NCBI GenBank assembly: GCA_007449985.2
Contig: VIIQ02000659.1
Span: 436,501-500,500, forward strand
Direction of reading: 5' to 3'
Source of the DNA: Desmodesmus armatus
Lineage: Eukaryota > Chlorophyta > Chlorophyceae > Sphaeropleales > Scenedesmaceae
Length of the DNA stretch: 64,000 nucleotides
The translations under genes were made by a program, and so were the position numbers. The notes beneath the pieces are model-generated. The model was not told the origin of the DNA. It saw only the letters and a list, made by a program, of their open reading frames with translations, and searched no databases. Position 1 is the stretch's first letter, and the number at the start of each line of letters is the position of its first letter. Shown here piece after piece: positions 1-58,736 of the stretch.

Positions 1-1289
1 TGCCTGACAGCTTTTAAGCCATGTGGAACGGCAATCAGCAAGAGGCAATTCGATTGCAAGTTACTGTCCAAATTTTAACTCAAGTTCAGATCAAGTTGCG
101 CAAGTGTACCTGCGCCTGGGCTGCTGGTGCCACTTTGATCAGTGCCCATTGAGCACTGGGCCAGTGGGTTGTCATGCCAGTTGTCACACTATCAGGCCAC
201 AAAGTGTTTCCTTGCCACTTGTTGTAGTAAGATCGCAGACTCTGCCGGGCTGAAGCTGCCGTGTCTGTCAACTTTTAACGTTTCCTTGCCACTTGTCAGC
301 GGTCAAGTTAGAGAGTCGCTTGGGCGGTTTGTGAGGCATGTATTTGAGTTGCTTGTACGATCATCTGATGAACGTTCTGATTTGTGCTGAGCTGTGCAGC
401 GTGCAGAAGTGCGCAAGCATCTTCCATAAACTTGGCTCAGACCGATTGGTCTGGGGATTTTCAACTCAACAATTACACATCATGCACAAGGCTGACCAAC
501 ACCACTTGGGGCTTGCAACATCAGGACTGTGTAACTCCGTCACAACTCAACAGAAACAGCCAACAGACACACTTTGAAACCACTCTCAATCGGCTCGGCC
601 TGATTGATCGGATCAGCCTGAGTCTCCTTCACATACTGATCAGCCATGGTCGGCAGAAAACAACCACCCCAGAAAACAATCCCAATAAGTTATCAACAGA
701 TGCTACATGCCCATGAGGACTCGGAGCGCACCACTGCGGCGGCTAAAACGTGGGCATGCAACACCGTGTTGTGTGCATGGTATGCACCACAATGGGGGAG
801 AAGCTTGGGGACAAAACCAAGAGCTTACCTACAAGTGCATACCTAAAAATACCCAGCACTATCGAGTGGCATGTTCCAGCCACAGCTGCCAAGTACTGGA
901 TGACAGCATCAATGCGCAACGTGCATACAGCGCCAAAACCTATCACTGCGGTCATACTGTGACAACACTCACACCTTCTCTCTCTGACCCACAACAACTG
1001 CACCTGGGCGAACCCAGCAACACAAAAACAACCCTGCAAAGCTATACTTGCGCACACGCTGCCCTTGACACACTGTGCGCCATATGGAACCACACACGAG
1101 CAATCATTCCTGTAGGCTTGAGGACTTGTAGGCTAACAAGTCAAGCTTGTGGGCACCACATGCCTTGACAGCCACCACCTTCCTACTTGCCGCCTGCGGA
1201 AGCATACGACGACGCACCTGCACAAACAGACACAACAGTGGAATTGTCATACACAACAAGTTACATGGGTGCTGTTACGCCTACATACA
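1..1289. other. Gene-poor flank, no supported gene
   Basis: No open frame here has recognisable protein character; the longest (about 150 codons at 707-1168, +) is low-complexity and unlike any family I know. The plus strand is A/C-rich, which in this window is typical of introns and UTRs of minus-strand genes, so part of it may be the 3' UTR or downstream flank of the minus-strand gene ending at 1290. Confidence 0.4.
1261..1265 (-). other. Possible TGTAA polyadenylation signal
   Basis: The minus strand reads TGTAA about 25 nt past the predicted TAG stop at 1290-1292. TGTAA is the usual poly(A) signal in chlorophyte algae. One pentamer is weak evidence, but its position fits the proposed 3' end of the silk-like gene. 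Confidence 0.3.
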
Positions 1290-4200
1290 CTAGCATTCAG
1301 GTGTGCGCCGCGAGATCACAACAAGCATGCAGAAGGTTGCAGTCTTGATTTCAGCGACATTCCTGTCAGCAAGCCAGCACGAGTAAAGAACCAACACCCA
1401 GCAGTTGAATTGAGGCCTGGTCAGTGAACTGTCTGCTACCCAAGTACAAGCAGCCAGCAGCATTGCTGGAACTGGTGCTGAGGAAACATGCAGCCAACAG
1501 CCTGTTTGCAGCTTCCCTACTCACTTGCAGAAGCAGCGCCTCCCCTGCCGCCCTTGCTGACTGCAGAGGCCTTGGATGCGGCCAATGCAGCACCACCGCC
1601 GCTGGCAATCGCGGTTGAGTCAGCATCAGCAACGGCAATGCCACCCTTGCTGAAGGCAGATGCCTCAGAATCAGCGACTGCAGGCACAGCAAGCATAGCA
1701 GATTCAGTTGGTGCACTGTGTGCATCTGATGCAGAGTACTTGTTGCTGTACATAAACCAATGCAACAGACAGGCTGGCCAATCTGCAACTGAGTGAGCGG
1801 TGATGTCCTATGTGCTCCCACAGTGTCCATGTTATCACAACGCAAACTGTTGAAGGCACCAGGTCGACCACCACATTTGCTAACACTGTACGCTCAGCAT
1901 GGCCCAGCTGTTGCAGTTTGATGATAACAGCAGGTGGGTGGCTGCACCCCCCGCTTGGAACAGTAGAATTCTATTTGGCAGGCTAGCAACCCTGCAATGG
2001 TGAATGGTGGCAGTCACTCACCAGCAATGCCGCCGTGCTTGCCACCCTTGCTGAGTGCAAAGGCATCAGCGTCAGCAGCCGCGTAGCCACCCTTGCCACC
2101 CTTGCTGAAGGCGGATGCATCAGCCTCAGCAACTGCAGGCAGCAATGGGCAGGAGCAGTAAGGGCGCAGTTTGATAATCAATCATATGCTACCGTATGTT
2201 GCAGCTAACTCCCACCTGCTGACGCACTGCACCATCGGTCAACACAGCCTAGGTGCTACTGTCGGTCCACACTTTTCAACATCGAAATTACCTGCACTGC
2301 ACGTGGTACAAGTACGCTAGCTGTAGCAGAATTTGACTTGAGTGGCTACTTGTCGCAATGGCGGACAAGCACTGCAAAAAATTCTGCACTTTCAATTGTA
2401 GGCCCCAAGAATCAAATGTCAATACGCCAGCTGCGGTCGCGGCCCACTTTCCTGCAGCCATGGGTGCTCTACTTACTTGCAATGCCGCCCTTGCCCTTGC
2501 CGCCGAATGCGAAGCTCTCTGCGCTTGCACTGGCCTTGGCCTTGCACAGGTCGATGAACTTGGTCCTGCAGGCTGGTGCGCCCCACTTCAGTCCAGTGCT
2601 GGCCTCCGCCTCCGCCTTGGCAGATGAGAAGACGTCACCACCAGCGGCAAGGGAGAAGGCGGAGGCACTGGCAGAGGCGGCAGCCTCACACTCATGGGGG
2701 TGGGGGGCGCGGCGGTGGCCCTTCTTGTACCAGTCGTTGAAGTAGCTGATGGCAACAGCGTCGGCAGAGGCGTAGGCACCTGTGAACACAGTGAAAGAGA
2801 CAGGTGCAGTTGTGCCAGTCTGGTGTAAGGCCGTCAAATGTATGCTATGATGGCTATTTGGTTGGGGTAAGGCTGCATGGCATGAAACAGCCGACCCAGA
2901 ACGCCACTGTGGCAACGACATCACAAGGACACAGAGGTTAGCCATTGGTGCAACAGAAGGCAACATATCACCTGCTGTGATGGAGAAGGAACAAAAACCA
3001 TGCATGAAGGACAACATGGCAGTGGGCGTGCTGTGCACGACCAAGCCCTACCATCACTGCGCTAGTGCTGGTGCTGGCCCAGTTTGGGGCAGGACTTACC
3101 GTTCCAGCCAGCAGTCAGCAGCTTCCTGCCGCCTTCTGCAAATGCAGAGGCTGAAGCACCTGCAGGCAGAGGCACAAGCTTCCGCTTTTAGGGCCGGTGT
3201 GAAGGTGTGCGCAAAACAGCTTCCGCTTTTAGGGCCGGTGTGAAGGTGTGCGCAAAACAGAGAGTCTAGTGTGTAAAAAGGAAACTCAGGAAGGAAAACC
3301 CTGAATAGCCCCTGGCAAGCTGGTCGTACGAAGCAACAACGGCAGGGGTTAGGGACTGCTGCGTGCTTAAGGCCTCTGATGCTGGTCCAATGCATGCAGT
3401 ACTCAGTGCCACATATTGTATTGCCCACACGTAGGATGTCCCCGCTGTCCAAACCCCTGTTGCTGACAGCAATGCACACAACCCCCAGCCAACCTAGAAG
3501 GTTCCTGTTTGCCGCAAGCTCTGAGAGCTGCCGCTGCTGTTGGCCTGGACCATTTCATTACCTGCAAAGGCCTTGCCACCCTTGCTGACAGCCTCTGCAG
3601 AAGCCTTGGCGGCAGCGACAGCGTCGCGACCCTTGCTCAAAGAGAACGCCTCAGCATCAGCGGCAGCAAGACTGCCGGCGCCCTTGCTGAATGCGGAGGC
3701 GTCAGCAGAAGCACCTGCAAGCAGCAGCAGTGGATGTGAGCTGATTCCAATCATGAGTGCTAGCAACCGTTGGGATCATCCCCGGTTGAAAACTTACAAC
3801 CAGCACATGTGAGGGACTGTTGCAGCAACTCCCAACCAGCTGCCCTATGCCTTCCTGCTCAGACGTGACGCGTTGCATGGAATCATACTGAGTTTTTGTA
3901 ACATGAATCAACCAGGCAGCTGTACCGGAGCAACCTGGCAGCTGCATTGTGACACCAGTCCATGGCCAGTGGCATCAGTGTGCTCTACACCTGCAGGTGC
4001 CTGCATACAAATCATGCTCATGCAGCTGTCTGATACCCACCAGAAAAGCTGCCGCCCTTGCCACCGAATGACAGGCTCTCAGCGCTTGCGCTGGACCTGG
4101 CCTTGCAAGCTCCAATGAACAGGTTTTTCCAACCTGGTGAGCCCCAGGAGAAGGTACTGGCCTCAGCTTCAGCCTTGGCGAAGGAGAGGGCGTCACCACC

Positions 4201-4558
4201 CTTGGCAAGGGAGAAGGCAGAGGCGCTTGCGGATGCTGCTGCCTCGCATGGGGGCGCGCGCTTGTAGCCTTTCTCGTGGTAGTCCTCTAGGAAGGCAATG
4301 ACAGTAGCCTCAGCAGAGGCAGAAGCTTCTGCACCTGCACATGTCATAAAAAAGGTGTGTGGTAGGCATTGGCGATATGTCCGTAATGCAACACAGTAAC
4401 AGCCCACTGGTAGCAACCCCATCATGCATGGCACGCTGACCTGACTCAAATTCAGCTGGAAGCTTACCTCCACCTCCGGTGAGCAGCTTGCGGTTCTCGG
4501 CTGCACACGCTGCCAACACGAACGATGCAAAAAGAAGCACTGCGATCAGACGAGCCAT
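1290..4558 (-). CDS. Secreted modular Ala/Ser-alternating (silk-like) protein
   Basis: I recognise no family. Proposed exons on the minus strand are 4558-4468, 4334-4041, 3714-3562, 3159-3100, 2779-2477, 2132-2022, 1677-1525 and 1477-1290, giving about 450 residues. Exon 1 encodes a clear signal peptide (MARLIAVLLFASFVLAACAA) followed by ENRKLLTGGG. The rest is built from units alternating Ala with Ser, Glu or Asp, ending in short Gly/Lys motifs such as SAFSKGG and FGGKG. Exons 2 and 5 are two copies of a ~100-residue module sharing CEAAASASASAFSL, AKAEAEAS and a later Cys. Exons 3, 6 and 7 are copies of a 37-51-residue module. All introns are phase 1, so exons can duplicate without breaking frame. 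Exon 8 differs (hydrophobic, Cys-containing) and is the least certain part; reading through the exon 7 donor would stop at 1517 instead. An extracellular matrix or cell-wall structural role is inference from composition. Confidence 0.72.
3177..3258. repeat. Tandem 41-bp duplication in an intron
   Basis: Two apparently identical 41-bp copies (3177-3217 and 3218-3258), each beginning agcttccgcttttaggg, lie in the intron between exons 3 and 4 of the silk-like gene. The identity suggests a recent duplication. Confidence 0.85.
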
Positions 4559-4664: not shown

Positions 4665-4678
4665 GGTATATATATGCG
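4665..4678 (-). promoter_or_regulatory. TATA-box-like element
   Basis: A TATATATA run (core 4667-4675) lies about 110 bp upstream of the silk-like gene's ATG at 4558, a plausible distance for a core promoter with a short 5' UTR. No similarly clear TATA element was seen upstream of the other genes. Confidence 0.5.
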
Positions 4679-6227: not shown

Positions 6228-7433
6228 TCACAGCATGACAGTGCTGTCAAAGAACACCGTGTCGTCCTCCGTGACGCTGTGCACGTGGAAGCGACGGATG
6301 ACGTCCGAAAAGCCATGCACCACGCGGCGCCCGCTGACGTGGTGCCTGCGGAAGCAGCGCTCCAGGCGCTGCTTGTCCCAGCCCTTCCAACTGCCGAGGT
6401 CGCAGCCCATGCGTTCAAATTCCCGCAGCTGCAGGTCAAACCCCTCGTTGGGGTCCACGATGGGCCGGGCCTGCTGCACGTGCGCGATGGCGGTCTCGCG
6501 GGACAGGCGCTCCTTCCACATGAGGTAGCCTATGCAGATGGTGCCGCTGCGGGACATGCCCTGGGCGCAGTGGACCAGCACGGCACCTGCATATAGAAGC
6601 AGGCCGGTCAGCAGCGGTTGCAGGCAGCAGGACAAGAGGGTACTGTCAGGTAGGGGGCGTGACGTGTGTAGGAGTGGTGTCTGCCCTTGCATGCATGTTC
6701 AGCGGCGTGATGGTGCTGGTGGTGACTTCCAGGAGGCTTCTGCAGGGGTCATGGAGGGTATAACACCTTGCTGCGCTGCTGAATGTACTCAAATCTGACG
6801 GTCAGCGGCCACCAGTCCCCTTATCTGTTCGGCTCAGCTGCACGCTGCTCACAAGTGCTGGGCTGCAGCGAGACCGATGTTTCTTTGGAGTGCCTCAGGT
6901 CCAGGTGCTGAAAGGTCGCCAATCATTCCAGTTCTTGCCTATTGATGTTACAGGCTCCTGCAGCTGGCCATTTCACCTTCTAGCCTCAGTCATGGGGTGA
7001 CCCTGACCACCCAGTGCCTTTCGAGGTGCCTCAACCACTCACCCTTTTTGCGGGCCTCATCAATGAAGGCAAACGACTCCTTGAAAGCCTCGACAATGTC
7101 TTCGTCCTCCTCGTCGCCGATGGAGAGGTGCTTGTAAACAAACTGGTCTGCAAAGCTGGGCCTGAGCTCACCACCTGCCTGCAGGATGTGTGTGATGCCT
7201 GCTGCCTGCAGTGCGCCTAGGCTGTTTTCAGTCTCCTTGGAGCCAATGAACAGGTTGTTCCTGATCTTCCCGGGTGGGTCTATGCACGGCTGCTCCTCGG
7301 AGCAAGTTGTTGCTGACAGCAGGAAGGCATCTGCTGGCACACACCCTTCCAATGCAGCTGAGGCAGCACGGTTGATGGCAGGGTGATCAGCGAGCACACG
7401 GTTACGTATGTGATCTGTGGTTGTTGTGGCCAT
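6228..7433 (-). CDS. Dual-specificity protein phosphatase (DSP family)
   Basis: Two exons, 7433-7043 and 6586-6228, joined in phase 1, give 249 residues. The central part has the DSP fold order: a strand/helix start (NNLFIGSKETE), GITHILQAGG, then FVYKHLSIGDEEDEDI in the general-acid loop position, and the catalytic P-loop HCAQGMSRSG, which fits the HCX5R signature with Cys nucleophile and Arg. Family members dephosphorylate phospho-Ser/Thr and phospho-Tyr, often on MAP kinases. The N-terminal ~50 residues show no targeting signal I can see. The C-terminal ~80 residues after the P-loop helix are basic and not assigned to a domain. The substrate is unknown. The gene lies in tandem with the minus-strand gene at 8.1-10.3 kb, 640 bp away. 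Confidence 0.88.
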
Positions 7434-8074
7434 TGCTAGGAGTCACCGAACGTCAATAGAAAGGGTCTCGGAGCACAAAGGCCCGGAAGGAGGGACGGTT
7501 GGTTGCAAAACCGGCAGCCAGCCAGCCAGAAGAATGCGAGGGTGTCTGAAACAGCGTAACAGGGCCTTTCGGAACTTGTGTGGCAAAAATTGTCAACTTG
7601 CTGTAACCAACACATAACTTGAAATTTGCAGGCCAGGAATGAGGGTGATTTTATCATTTTGAGGCGAAATATGCATTATTCATGACGGTTAAGCCAAGTT
7701 TGGCGGGCACAAGCAGCCTACAGAGTCACACTGAGCATGTACAGCCAGCTGGCTGTGCAGCCAGCCTGGCAAACAGCCAATCTGCAATCATGGCCAGCCT
7801 GCCGGTATCAGTGCCTACTGGGTACACAGTCTTGACACCTAACTGCATCTTTCAAGACACATCTCTCACTGAGCTGCAGCTGCAGCCCGTATGGCAAGGG
7901 CTGTGCCGTCTGCCATGGTCCCTCACCCTGCCAGGCTGGCAGGCACCGCTGCAGCGAAGTCACATGGTACTGGTGCCAGTAGGGGGACACACGGCCATCC
8001 CTGTGTACGACACAGTGAGCCAGGCCACAAGTGGGCACGGTCTTGATGCACAGCCGCCACCTCATGACACAGTG
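7434..8074. other. Intergenic: phosphatase promoter and upstream 3' UTR
   Basis: This 641-bp gap separates two minus-strand genes. Nothing in it is clearly coding. It should hold the phosphatase promoter (left part) and the 3' UTR of the gene ending at 8075 (right part). No TATA box is obvious. Confidence 0.45.
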
Positions 8075-54272: not shown

Positions 54273-57200
54273 ATGCCGCAGTTCGAGGTGGCCGTTCCCT
54301 ATCTGGATAAGCTGAGCGTCCAGTGGGGTGATCGATCACAGGGAGAGAAGACCGTGATCGCTGTGGCGGGAGGTGCAGCAGCGCTGGGTCTGGGCGTGCT
54401 GCTGTACAGAAGGTGAGTGGGGCAGACAGACGCCATGGCAGGGGTATAAGGCTTTCACAACGATGGATATCATGATCGTGGGCACCTGCAAGCCAACAAG
54501 GCCTTGTGAAGGTGATGCATGGGTCAGCAGCAGGGGATCAAGGTTACTTTTTTGCAATAGCAGGCCAGGGAGGCCAGGAGCATATGCTTACAATCCAGCA
54601 AAAGGTTTGGTTGTGAGAAAGCTCTCTCTCAGCACTCACGTGCCTGCCCAACATGTGTTTGGACTTGGGTGCAGCAAAAGCAGGGGGGCAGGGGGGGCAT
54701 TGCCAATAGACAGCACATGCAGACAGGCATAGCGCATTGAAGCAGTCGTCTGAACTTCCAGCAGATGCATTTCACATCTCTCTTTTCATGTTAGCGCACT
54801 CATCCTTAGGCGCTTGATGTGCCGCTGCTATCACTCCCCTTTGGTGGGGGGTGACGGGTGCGCAGTGGCATGTGCCTCATAACGCGGAACACCCCAGGTT
54901 GTAGCAGTAGGTGGCTGTTTCAACGCATAGTCACCAACAGCACAGCACAGCACATGCACACGCACACGTGCATTCAAGCGACCTCATGCTCGCCTGGTTG
55001 CATCCCACCCCCTCTGTGCCCCAGCTTGCAATGCACACTTGCGCTTGTGCTGCTGTGGGTGCGCAGTTTATGCTGAAAACTGTGCACACTCTGCAGCATC
55101 AGTGCATGTATGCCACACAGTGGGGACAGGGCGTAGACACCAGTATACAGGGCAGCAGGTGCCGCTGACGCCTAAGAGGCCTTCTGGGGTCAGACAGCAC
55201 TGATGTTTGAGGCAGGGGGCCAAGCGATGCATTCTGCAGGGGCACAGAGATGCATTCTGCAGCTGGAGGGCTGGGAGGGCGGGAGGGCAGTGCATGTGAC
55301 GTGGTGCATTACAGCACGCAAACCTTTACAACATGTACCCCTACCTTCCCTGTGTGTCTCCTGGCCTGTGTGTGTGGGGCGATGCAGAGGAGCACCACTT
55401 CCACACATCACATCACACAGCCAGCCTGCAAGTGCATTGCGATAATGACACGCAATGCCCAAATGCATGTCTCCCCCTCCTCCCCCAGCCAGTTGCAATG
55501 CACACTTGGAACTTAAGTTGCTGGCTTGGTTGCCGCTCATACCGAGTGGGGGGTGACACCCAGCAGCACAAGTACATGTGTGCCTCCAACCTGGGGGAGG
55601 GGTTTGTGACACTCAGTAGCAGCATTGGAAGATCCAGGACAAACATTGGGTGATAGGATACTTGAGATCATGGTGATTACGAGTAAAAATAAGACTGATG
55701 GGTCTGCAAATGAGTGGCCTCTCTTGATTGATGCAGTGGCATAAGGGGGCAGCTTCGGTATTGACGTGGTCGTGGCGATGTGGGGCGCTTTGCACACATT
55801 ATGCTGCATTTCAAGCATTTTGGGGGTTACAGCAGAAGTCCAACAGGTGGGGTGTGCCTGCCAACGAGCATGCCGGGCGGCAATTGACGGCCTGTGCTGC
55901 CATGTGCTGGCAGCATTGGTTTCCCTGGGGTACATGTCTGATTCCCCAAACAGAAGGTTACTCCATGTTGTGTACGCCCACCAGGTCTGCTGTGCGCTGC
56001 CATGCTGTGTGGTGTTGCTGCAGGGTGACAGATGAGCGGCGCAACCGCCCCACTGTGTTTGAGCTGTCAGGCGGCTCCATTGACTCAAAGAAGGTGCGCA
56101 GGGGACACGTGTCATCATGCATGCATATCAGATGCCGCAACAAAGATTTAAAGTTGTGTATCTGTGCCATTCTTCCTCACCCGCTTGTAGATTTGAGCGT
56201 GCTCCTGATTATAGTGTGGTCACTGCGCTGGCGTCGGCTTGACTCTGGCTGCTCAGCAGTGTGAGGATCTGGCTCTTGAGCAGTTGCTGACTGTAAGCGA
56301 TGAGGTCTGTAGGCGCATGGCAGTATCAATTGGCACACATGTTGTACTACAGACTCAAGTTGCCCCCTCTGGTGTTGGCCTGTTGGGGCCCTTCCGTCCT
56401 GCAGGTGAAGAGTGAGTGGAACAACAATAGCTGATTGTAACTCATGTGTCAACTCGCTGCCCCCACAACTGCTGCTGTTGGCTTGTCGCGTCCTTCCCTC
56501 CTGCAGGTGAAGAGTGAGTGGAACAACTATGAGTCTAGCTATGGCAAGGATGCTGGTGAGGGCATCAAGGACAGGAGCAAGACAACACAGCTGGTGGACG
56601 TATTCTACAGCCTGGTGGGTGGAGGGTGGTGTGGTGTGGTGGTGTGTGTGTGTGGGGGGGGGGGGGGGAGTCGGGGGGGGGGGGGGGGGGTCAAGTATTT
56701 CTTTGGGGGGCGGGGGAGGAGGGGAACTGCCCTTTTAGGGGGGGTATGTCGCTGTGATTACTAAGGGCATCAAGGACAGAGGACAGGAGCAAGACAACAC
56801 AGCTGGTGGATGTCTTCTACAGCCTGGTGGGTGGAGGGGGTGGTGTGGTGTGGTGTGGTGTGGTGTGTGTGTGTGTGTGTGTGTGTGTGGGGGGGGGGGG
56901 GGTTCAAGTATCTCTTTGGGGGCGGGGGAGGAGGGGAACTGCCCTTTTTTGGGGGGGGGTATGTCGCTGTGATTACTAAGGGCATCAAGGACAGAGGACA
57001 GGAGCAAGACAACACAGCTGGTGGACGTGGGGGGGGGGAAACTGGTGTGCTTGTGTGCCTTTTTGGGGGTGCAGGGTAGAGGCGGAGTGCTGGGTAGCTG
57101 TGCGGCGCAGTTGGCAGGCGGGGGGGGGGGGGGGGAGGGTGATGCTGCATGGCGGGTGTGGTGGTGGTGGTGGTGGTGGGGTGTTCTATTGGGGGGAACA

Positions 57201-58736
57201 AGCATGGTGTTAGGTTGGTTGCGAATGGGCGTTTAGTACTCCTTTTTTAGCTCCAGAGGTTGGGGCTGTGCTGAGCGGTGTGCGTGTCTCCGGGGGGGGG
57301 GGGGGTCACCAGTTGGGTGGATTGTCGGGCATGGATGTGTTCCTGTAGTGTCAGTGTGGGTGCCATGGGGTTGTGCGATTGTCGGGGGGGGGGGTGGCTG
57401 TGTGAGGTTGTCCGTGAGAGAGTTGTAGCCTGCTGTCATTTTTGGGGGTGGACGGGTGCCCAAAGCCCCGGGGGGGGGGGGGGCAGGTTGGTGGTGTTGC
57501 CTGGTGATGGTGGTGCGGCACATGCGAGTCCAGGGGTTCAGCCTAACACCCTTATAATGCATTGCTTCCAGCTTCACTGTCAGCTGGCTACACTTGCCGG
57601 CCAGAGCAGCCAGCATCTGCTTGTGTGTCTTTGCTGGTAGTAGCAGTCGGAGTGCATCGAAAGAGACCAACATAAGCTGGGCTGGGTGCGAGCTGACATT
57701 GCGCGTGTATGTGGGGTGTATTTGATCTTGGATTAGATCTCGCCACCACCACATTGGCGCGTGATGGCGGCCCTTACCTAGCTGGCTAGACCATGCCAAT
57801 CGCATTGCTGTGCGCACATCGTTTCCATGTCAACTGCAATGTGACCCAAGCAGCAAGAGCAAACGGCGTCACAGGAAACTTGTGGCTGTCAATGCAATTA
57901 CCTTTTTTATTCACTGAGACTTAGGGGGTTTAGGGCACTGAGACTTAGGGGGTTAGGGATTTGTGCTTGTGTGTGGGGGGGTGTTGACGGTCTTAGGGAG
58001 TGCTGAGTGTGTTGGGTGTCGTGATGGTGGTAGGTGTCTTCTCCAGCCTGCTAGGTGGGTGGTTTGGGGCGTTTGGGGGGGGGGGGTGCTGGAGGGGCCA
58101 CAATGATTGGTGTCGCAACCTGTGTTTGGGCGGGGATTGGCATTGTTTGGTGCACAGGCGACGGGAACACATTGGTGGTGATGGTAGCAGGATTTGGGGT
58201 AAGGCACAAAGCGAGGTTTAGGGAAGCAGCCCACCACAAAGCCAGCACAGTTTGCACGCAAGCGTATTGGCTTACCATTAGGCTGGTCCCTGGGCTCAGC
58301 CCTACTAGCTGGCGGTGTGCGCTGCCGTCGTGTCACCATGTAGGGGATTCAAGGCGCTGCATCGGTGCTTGCATACCCCACATGAGCGCGCGATGTCTGC
58401 ATACCCGCACCTTGTCGGCTACAATTGGCCAAGCACTGTACGGCCCCACATTGGTCTGAAGCTGATTTCACTGTATTCACTTCACTATGGAATGGACAAG
58501 GCATAGTAGGCCTGTTGCCGCCACTGCACAGTTGAGACTGGGTTGACAGGGGGGCTCACAGCATGTGCTGGCCGTTGTCTGCTGGCTACCCGCATCCACA
58601 TTTCAAAGCGCATGCCAAGTTGAATACTGACATGGGTCGCTGTGTCGTGTGATGCTGCGCTCTCTGCTGCTGCAGGTGACTGACATTTACGAGTATGGTT
58701 GGGGCCAGAGCTTCCACTTCTCACCCAAGCTGCCAG
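54273..58736 (+). CDS. SMT1: Sterol C24-methyltransferase, N-terminal part
   Basis: Four exons (54273-54412, 56024-56093, 56507-56614, 58676-58736) encode the first ~126 residues. The protein starts MPQFEVAVPYLDKLSVQWGD. It has an N-terminal membrane segment (TVIAVAGGAAALGLGVLLY), then the SMT-typical WNNYESSYGKDAGEG, STKTTQLVDVFYSL-like KTTQLVDVFYSL and TDIYEYGWGQSFHFSPKLPG (sterol-binding region I is YEYGWG..FHF). The enzyme transfers methyl from SAM to C24 of cycloartenol-type sterols at the ER. The SAM-binding half (beginning around the DAGCG motif) is not found before the window ends, although over 5 kb follow. Either intron 4 is very long and filled with satellite, or the locus is truncated or misassembled. 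Introns 3 and 2 carry partial copies of exon 3. Confidence 0.88.
56405..56434 (+). repeat. Decoy copy of SMT1 exon 3 start
   Basis: After a cctgcag acceptor, gtgaagagtgagtggaacaa repeats the true exon 3 start (56507), then hits TAG/TGA stops. Confidence 0.85.
56766..57029 (+). repeat. Two decoy copies of SMT1 exon 3 end
   Basis: Copies of the exon 3 end occur at 56766-56828 (with donor, tacagcctg then gtgggt) and 56981-57029 (broken off after gtggacgt). Both carry a 6-bp insertion (gaggac) relative to the true exon, and G-tracts separate them. They share a ttactaagggcatcaagg start, so the second arose from the first. Confidence 0.85.
57915..57961. repeat. Tandem repeat with TTTAGGG/TTAGGG-like motifs
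   Basis: cactgagacttagggggttt and aggg occur twice in tandem, bringing TTTAGGG and TTAGGG words together. This is too short to be called interstitial telomere. Confidence 0.4.

Follow-up and report, generated by a model that had tools for sequence, protein, structure and literature searches.

Hydroxyproline-rich glycoproteins are secreted proteins of chlorophyte walls. Other described systems with which the present locus can be compared are taken from excerpts of published studies. In the lacewing egg-stalk proteins MalXB1/2, a 16-residue periodicity gives a cross-beta conformation (PMC5485732), and the SilkSlider criterion for silk-like proteins is a glycine content of at least 25% in 80 residues or 35% in 28 (PMC4944945). 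In one study of plant pectin methylesterases, all eight processed enzymes carried RRLL/RKLL-type motifs in the region where cleavage is presumed to occur (PMC11494411). Words starting with silk, alanine or glycine-rich were absent from the excerpted part of a review of the green-algal extracellular matrix (PMC10762512). The present analysis concerns a 64,000-nucleotide stretch of DNA from Desmodesmus armatus (the window; G000:C627:436501-500500, contig VIIQ02000659.1) and a gene in it, g1, which encodes a putatively secreted protein with alternating alanine. This gene belongs to a real and apparently undescribed family of secreted proteins, found in this alga and in public contigs; among the matches listed, no description of the family was recognised in open-licence PubMed Central literature.

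Gene model of g1

The g1 gene was modelled on the minus strand between window positions 4558 and 1183, with 1200 coding bases in eight exons that specify a 399-residue protein. The exons are, in order, a signal exon, L1, B, C, L2, S1, S2 and a terminal exon. The seven introns are GT-AG and all seven are in phase 1, in agreement with a first-pass annotation of the same DNA; splice sites were picked from reading frames, so that the GT-AG ends arise partly by construction, and the exon boundaries are backed by paralogs. The modelled features were as follows.

4468..4558, minus strand: exon 1, putative signal peptide followed by ENRKLLTGGG with the RKLL motif (RKLL in all seven family signal exons)
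4041..4334, minus strand: exon 2, L module 1 (L1), with two conserved Cys (aligned with 14 rows, L2 and 13 relatives)
3562..3714, minus strand: exon 3, B, short alternating repeat module (repeat comparison)
3100..3159, minus strand: exon 4, C, putative fusion joint, terminal-exon-like ASASAFAEGG plus signal-exon tail RKLLT (shuffle-tested alignment scores)
2477..2779, minus strand: exon 5, L module 2 (L2), with a third Cys, of the g2/g3 subfamily (alignment, tree)
2022..2132, minus strand: exon 6, S1, short repeat module with SKGG turns (repeat comparison)
1525..1677, minus strand: exon 7, S2, short repeat module with SKGG turns (repeat comparison)
1183..1217, minus strand: exon 8, true terminal exon, SASSYASAGGK followed by the stop (aligns with the g2 and g3 terminal exons)
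4667..4674, minus strand: two overlapping TATAWA matches that resemble a TATA box and precede the ATG by 114 and 116 bp (motif scan)
473..477, minus strand: weak candidate polyadenylation signal TGTAA, 705 bp past the stop (motif scan)

Judged by hydropathy only, the N-terminus of g1 is signal-peptide-like: its 10-residue maximum of 2.89 supports the signal peptide proposed earlier, and the signal exons of all seven family genes reached maxima of 2.84-3.28. Downstream of the signal peptide, no long hydrophobic stretch was seen by eye. The two copies of a module of approximately 100 residues that had been proposed (4334-4041 and 2779-2477) correspond to L1 and L2, which are 62% identical, and the three proposed copies of a shorter module (3714-3562, 2132-2022 and 1677-1525) were likewise recovered, as B, S1 and S2. 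The minus strand, the joint at exon 3159-3100, the RKLL motif and the paralogs outside the window go beyond that annotation.

The 3' end of the gene was revised. It had been placed at 1290, while alignment with the paralogs places the terminal exon at 1217-1183, beyond the interval first assigned to the gene. The stop at 1290 closes an open frame that has no counterpart in the paralog alignment and from which the earlier position was presumably taken; an exon 8 ending at this stop was rejected in favour of the conserved terminal exon. Terminal exons of g1 and its neighbours g2 and g3 aligned as SASSYASAGGK, SASAFAGGK and SVSASASGKK, and a C-terminal GGK or GKK is typical of the family.

TATAWA was present 86-145 bp before the ATG in six of the seven family genes (not in g7), against a background of 0.01-0.08 per 300 bp of fetched stretches, the tandem paralogs in this count not being independent. 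TGTAA is the green-algal polyadenylation signal. It occurred 586-705 bp past the stop in all six genes scanned (g7 was left out), with a chance expectation of about 1 in 1200 bp scanned and, here too, paralogs that are not independent.

A family of at least seven genes

Searches of the genome (115.8 Mb, 831 contigs) identified at least seven family genes with eight L modules at four loci. Four of the modules are on the contig of the window, C627 (two in g1 and one each in g2 and g3, both located just past the window edge), two on C71 (g4 and g5), one on C68 (g6) and one on C560 (g7). All eight places were found by the first query and again by each of four divergent queries, counts for large families being lower bounds; two further places, added by one divergent query at E about 0.83, were not counted. 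The single-unit genes consist of a signal exon, an L exon, one or more repeat exons and a terminal exon, and encode 151-233 residues (g2-g6). The 3' end of g7 lies outside its gene model. Phase 1 was observed in 23 of the 24 modelled introns (7, 4, 4, 3, 3, 2 and 1 per gene), the exception being intron 1 of g6, which is in phase 2.

In a comparison of unit 2 of g1 with g2 and g3, 602 aligned exon columns coincided in all three pairs. Exon identities were 94.7, 89.4 and 89.2% (g1-g2, g1-g3 and g2-g3, respectively), whereas those of the introns were 72.3, 48.5 and 51.7%. For six L modules (L1, L2 and those of g2-g5), the ratio of nonsynonymous to synonymous substitution rates (dN/dS) was 0.10-0.39 in every one of the 15 pairs, with a value of 0.097 for L2 versus g3. 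Comparison of g7 with the same six modules gave 0.19-0.35 in four pairs, values that are unreliable at a dS of at least 1.7, and saturation in the other two; for g6-g7, dN/dS was 0.55. The ratios among the six modules indicate that most L modules are under purifying selection. The two Cys of the L module were invariant in 10 of 10 aligned rows, and Trp and Phe were also conserved.

Public protein sets contained 18 distinct relatives, each with an E value of 3.8e-4 or better in at least one of three protein searches; in two of these searches, scoring was confined to the candidates with the most words in common (7,981 and 7,993, respectively). None of the relatives has a precomputed Pfam domain, and on visual inspection most of them resemble single exons read past splice sites. 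P0014 and P0019 have a signal-peptide-like start followed by RKML, a layout that matches the family of the window.

A tree was constructed from 22 L modules, eight from this genome and 14 from the 18 relatives (P0005, P0011 and P0013 were omitted as short and P0021 as repeat-only). In this tree, g7 grouped with P0008/P0009 (100/100), L2/g2/g3 with P0018 (98/92, P0018 being a long branch) and g6 with P0012/P0020 (82/80, where long branches meet). L1 was placed outside the L2/g2/g3/P0018 group, and 10 of the 19 inner branches lacked resolution. Since g7, L2/g2/g3 and g6 group with relatives from outside this genome, the L-module subfamilies seem to be older than the species.

In Pfam, three full proteins gave no match above the cut-off (best E 0.026, 14.8 bits versus a cut-off of 27), and the best match of 15 alignment rows, obtained for one row, had an E value of 0.004. 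Ten L modules searched against NCBIfam gave a best E of 0.065, which is a weak test because that library is bacterial and archaeal. Fold searches returned nothing firm and no convincing PDB relative. A prokaryotic, viral or plasmid origin was rejected, none of 145 viral-contig and 244 genome-contig pattern matches being confirmed; in a plasmid search with the L1 frame alone no relative was confirmed either, the phage collection lying outside these searches.

Alternation of alanine

The alternation of Ala that had been noted in the first-pass annotation withstood a shuffling test. The g1 protein contains 56 A-x-A triplets, versus 20.8 ± 3.9 in shuffled sequences, and none of 5000 shuffles reached 56. 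The central residue was Ser in 23 of these triplets, Glu in 9, Asp in 7, Lys in 4, Val in 4, Phe in 3 and another residue in 6. Autocorrelation of Ala was +0.43 at lag 2 and +0.28 at lag 4, and in 12-residue windows the period-2 Ala power was 2.6-3.2, compared with 1.0-1.2 after shuffling. A helical alternation was rejected, the Ala power at 3.6 residues being 0.44-0.74 (no shuffled control) as against 2.6-3.2 at 2 residues. The S region showed an excess of self-matches at lags 15-19 (z 2.6-3.3) and at lag 34 (z 5.4), 39 lags having been tried.

Alternation was kept in the repeat-plus-terminal regions of g2, g3, g4 and g5 and in the repeat part of P0021 (0 of 2000 shuffles in each case), the repeat regions of g4 and g5 being just 49-53% identical to the query repeats. 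In exon B alone it was weaker (6 of 2000 shuffles reached the observed value), and A-x-A also runs on within the L module. Judged from the order of residues, the alternation is of the beta-strand type, in which one face would consist of Ala throughout and the other of small polar or charged residues, the turns being Lys-Gly-Gly. The family is high in Ala, Gly and Ser and has a strong composition bias. With 6 Pro in the 399 residues of g1 and 3-4 Pro in g2-g5, its members lack the Pro-rich repeats of hydroxyproline-rich wall glycoproteins.

The RKLL motif

RKLL follows the signal peptide in all seven genes, amid otherwise diverged sequence, and occurs again at the putative fusion joint of g1. 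Fetched sequence was scanned with a regular expression for a hydrophobic start followed by R[KR][LM]L, a pattern written after the family had been seen. Of the 13 matches, eight were the seven family genes (g1 twice) and five were at four other places, while ten block-shuffled controls yielded 0-1. Because RKLL is present in all seven genes and has a precedent in plant pectin methylesterases, we infer that it may be a processing site. In addition, two open frames that resemble each other and combine a hydrophobic start with RKLL lie on opposite strands, at window 20472 (minus strand) and C627:425837 (plus strand), and are perhaps a repeated element.

Proposed function and alternative explanations

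The g1 family is tentatively interpreted as secreted structural (matrix) proteins that would be cut at RKLL and whose Ala faces would stack into an extracellular sheet or fibre, with g1 as a tandem polyprotein. A probability of roughly 0.45, a little under even odds, is assigned to this interpretation. The signal peptide would direct the protein to the secretory pathway, and a subtilase-type protease would cut it at RKLL. The L module would then fold as a small beta sheet clipped by its C-C pair; an AlphaFold2 model of L1, made with 14 rows (L2 and 13 relatives), is suggestive of a four-strand fold, with long strands at 2-15, 34-43, 46-60 and 74-88 and no helix. Repeat exons would add further strands, each some 9-10 residues long, with only Ala on one face, Ser/Glu/Asp/Lys on the other and turns at SKGG. 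Stacking of the Ala faces would finally produce the extracellular sheet or fibre, most plausibly in wall, sheath or cell-cell glue, and a wall or fibre role may thus be proposed. In g1, a second cut by this protease, at the RKLL of the joint, would yield two mature chains.

A wider proposal, in which these genes would represent an undescribed, silk-convergent class of algal structural proteins, with RKLL-cut precursors and Ala-faced sheets building the outer wall or cell-cell bond of Scenedesmaceae colonies and with fused units as polyproteins cut at internal RKLL, is distinctly more doubtful. Should the family prove to belong to the wall or to act as an adhesive, its small set of at least seven genes would open a way to study how these walls and colonies are held together, and its proteins would offer a compact natural template for materials that are built of Ala-faced sheets and form in water. 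With RKLL at its joint, the putatively fused gene would also allow polyprotein processing to be tested simply in an alga.

Several observations weigh against the structural interpretation. The L1 model has a low confidence, with a mean predicted local distance difference test score (pLDDT) of 61 and a predicted template modelling score (pTM) of 0.42. A model of S2 with three rows (pLDDT 48.5, pTM 0.16) contains no strand and one short helix; it is uninformative and contrary to what a silk-like protein would favour. The first-pass annotation had stated that a fully disordered structure without homologues would speak against it. That outcome did not arise in this form, as 18 relatives and at least seven genes were found, but both structure models are of low confidence. 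Over whole modules, period-2 power was high for S1+S2 only (11.0; L1 0.24, B 1.16 and L2 0.05), which implies phase shifts between strands in the other modules. No repeat exon was found in the g6 model when one was looked for, indicating that repeats are not needed by every member, and dN/dS of g6 versus the six L modules was 0.43-0.80, a weaker constraint. Processing at RKLL is proposed by analogy. The best Gly contents over g1-g6, 22.5% per 80 residues and 32.1% per 28, are below the SilkSlider threshold (PMC4944945).

Wall proteomics points in the same direction. In the excerpted part of one Scenedesmus maternal-wall proteome, none of 12 bona fide wall proteins was recognisable as a family member, as judged by description and not by sequence; about 0.1% of the spectra of that study were assigned to peptides (PMC11839794). 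Its Table 3 includes two proteins without a Prosite match, of 252 aa and 28.4 kDa (113 Da per residue) and of 817 aa and 80.3 kDa (98 Da per residue). The former was rejected as a family member, since 113 Da per residue does not fit the 95-97 Da per residue of g1-g5, which are 214-399 aa in length (PMC11839794).

The alternative that survives best is a secreted soluble protectant, that is, a flexible hydrophilic Ala/Gly/Ser/Lys protein with an ice-binding, desiccation-related or cryoprotective role, similar in effect to late embryogenesis abundant (LEA) proteins, that does not assemble. High Ala, Gly and Ser contents, the low-confidence, strandless model of the repeat exon and the wide differences in charge among members (mature isoelectric points from 4.85 to 9.27 across g1-g5) are all consistent with such a role. 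It would, however, not require that diverged copies keep a period-2 alternation beyond mere composition, nor that Cys, Trp and Phe of the L module are conserved and dN/dS is low among six L modules, and it is considered unlikely.

Slightly less probable still is a small secreted signalling, recognition or defence protein, in which L would be the active folded domain freed at RKLL and the repeat tail a spacer. L is common to all seven genes and stands without repeat exons in the g6 model, the propeptide is of the RKLL type, and tandem duplication and divergent subfamilies would suit such a protein. On the other hand, Pfam, NCBIfam and PDB yielded no convincing match, and the A-x-A pattern continues within L itself.

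Exon C and the probable fusion of two units

Exon C (ASASAFAEGGRKLLTAGWNG) resembles a terminal exon that continues as the end of a signal exon. Aligned as DNA together with short flanking stretches, it scored 55 with the g2 terminal exon, where the highest of 1000 shuffled scores was 36, and 44 with the g1 signal exon (highest shuffled score, 34); the match to the g2 signal exon was marginal (score 37, reached by 2 of 1000 shuffles). Scored without shuffles, alignments to the g1 and g3 terminal exons gave 50 and 58 and that to the g3 signal exon 41. Between B and L2, RKLL was found in no other frame and Met-led frames peaked at a hydropathy of 2.31. From these scores and from the lack of another RKLL or signal-like frame in this interval, the preferred reading of g1 is a fusion between two paralogs that belong to different subfamilies, with the stop lost and RKLL kept.

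Readthrough past the exon C donor adds 11 residues before a stop is met (..GWNG KSCPKLGQHQH), and g2 and g3 are single-unit genes. The window might accordingly hold two genes, with unit 1 ending by such readthrough and unit 2 (L2, S1, S2 and terminal exon) being either an orphan that lacks a signal peptide or a copy in decay. This arrangement is improbable: exon C retains a phase-1 GTAAG donor, unit 2 is intact and under constraint (the L2-g3 ratio given above), no alternative RKLL frame exists from B to L2, and Met-led frames there do not exceed 2.31, versus 2.84-3.28 in the seven signal exons. A fusion of two paralogs is therefore preferred. The intron between B and C contains, near exon C, a perfect 41-bp tandem duplication (window 3177-3260, 2.0 copies, 100% match).

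A low-complexity translation artefact or chance open frames, which the strong composition bias might suggest, was already disfavoured and is hardly credible in view of the 18 public relatives, the conservation of frame and splice sites among paralogs, the purifying selection and the conserved TATAWA.

Neighbouring and organism-level features

On the same strand as g1, window 6228-6600 (minus) belongs to a gene for a dual-specificity phosphatase (DSPc, E 3.8e-17) and covers part of it; the open frame at 6990-7442 may contribute a further exon to this gene. A strong local GC skew of 0.358 (next highest 2-kb value, 0.169) was observed at window 56001-58000, with an AT skew of -0.194. Elsewhere on the contig, at C627:407002-411900 (minus), exon-like frames of about 115 residues (GKAESLKAAVAAGKADP...) that are almost identical to one another are repeated in tandem, and each follows a run rich in Cys/Leu codons; a Pfam search with one copy returned nothing at E≤0.01.

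On contig C278, in-frame TAG codons occur in two pieces of cox1, 8 in the first and 11 in the second. Under NCBI table 22 (Scenedesmus obliquus mitochondria) they are leucine, at positions judged ordinary for cox1, with a single stop left close to the end of the second piece. TAG as leucine in mitochondria is typical of Scenedesmaceae, and the alga is taken to be of this type. More cox1-like pieces with in-frame TAG on contigs C52, C53 and C18, those on C53 and C18 being below the family cut-off, are possibly mitochondrial DNA copied into the nucleus.

Comparison with known systems

Unlike the hydroxyproline-rich algal wall glycoproteins, the g1 protein is Pro-poor (6/399). With plant pectin methylesterase precursors it shares an RRLL/RKLL-type motif at the processed junction of a secreted precursor (PMC11494411); the motif alone is in common, the enzyme domain not having been found in the algal family. 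The Gly/Ser-rich cement proteins of barnacles resemble the family by pattern only, in that silk-like low-complexity blocks alternate with more complex basic blocks; they are metazoan and their motifs favour Ser-Ser, whereas those of the alga are Ala-x-Ala (PMC5099703).

SilkSlider silk-like proteins likewise combine a signal peptide with low-complexity domains of small residues and a lineage-specific distribution, but they are Gly-rich whereas the algal family is Ala-rich (PMC4944945). By the SilkSlider rule the family is not a silk-like structural protein, although it may work like one. The label silk-like, as used in the first-pass annotation, hence fails as a class assignment because the Gly threshold is missed, and is retained as a working analogy that draws on the local period-2 Ala, the repeat at about 15-19 residues and the low-confidence, all-strand L model.

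That analogy appears closest for the cross-beta silks of lacewing egg stalks (MalXB1/2 and ChryC1/2), which are Ser/Gly/Ala-rich, as is the algal family, and are likened to it by pattern with no claim of sequence kinship. The algal proteins differ in having an Ala face opposite a Ser/Glu/Asp/Lys face, a cysteine domain and a length of 151-399 residues (g1-g6). Set against the 16-residue period of MalXB1/2, the algal S region matches itself at lags 15-19 and 34, with strands modelled for L and none for S2 (PMC5485732). Among the systems compared, lacewing cross-beta silk would thus be the nearest working analogy for the g1 family.

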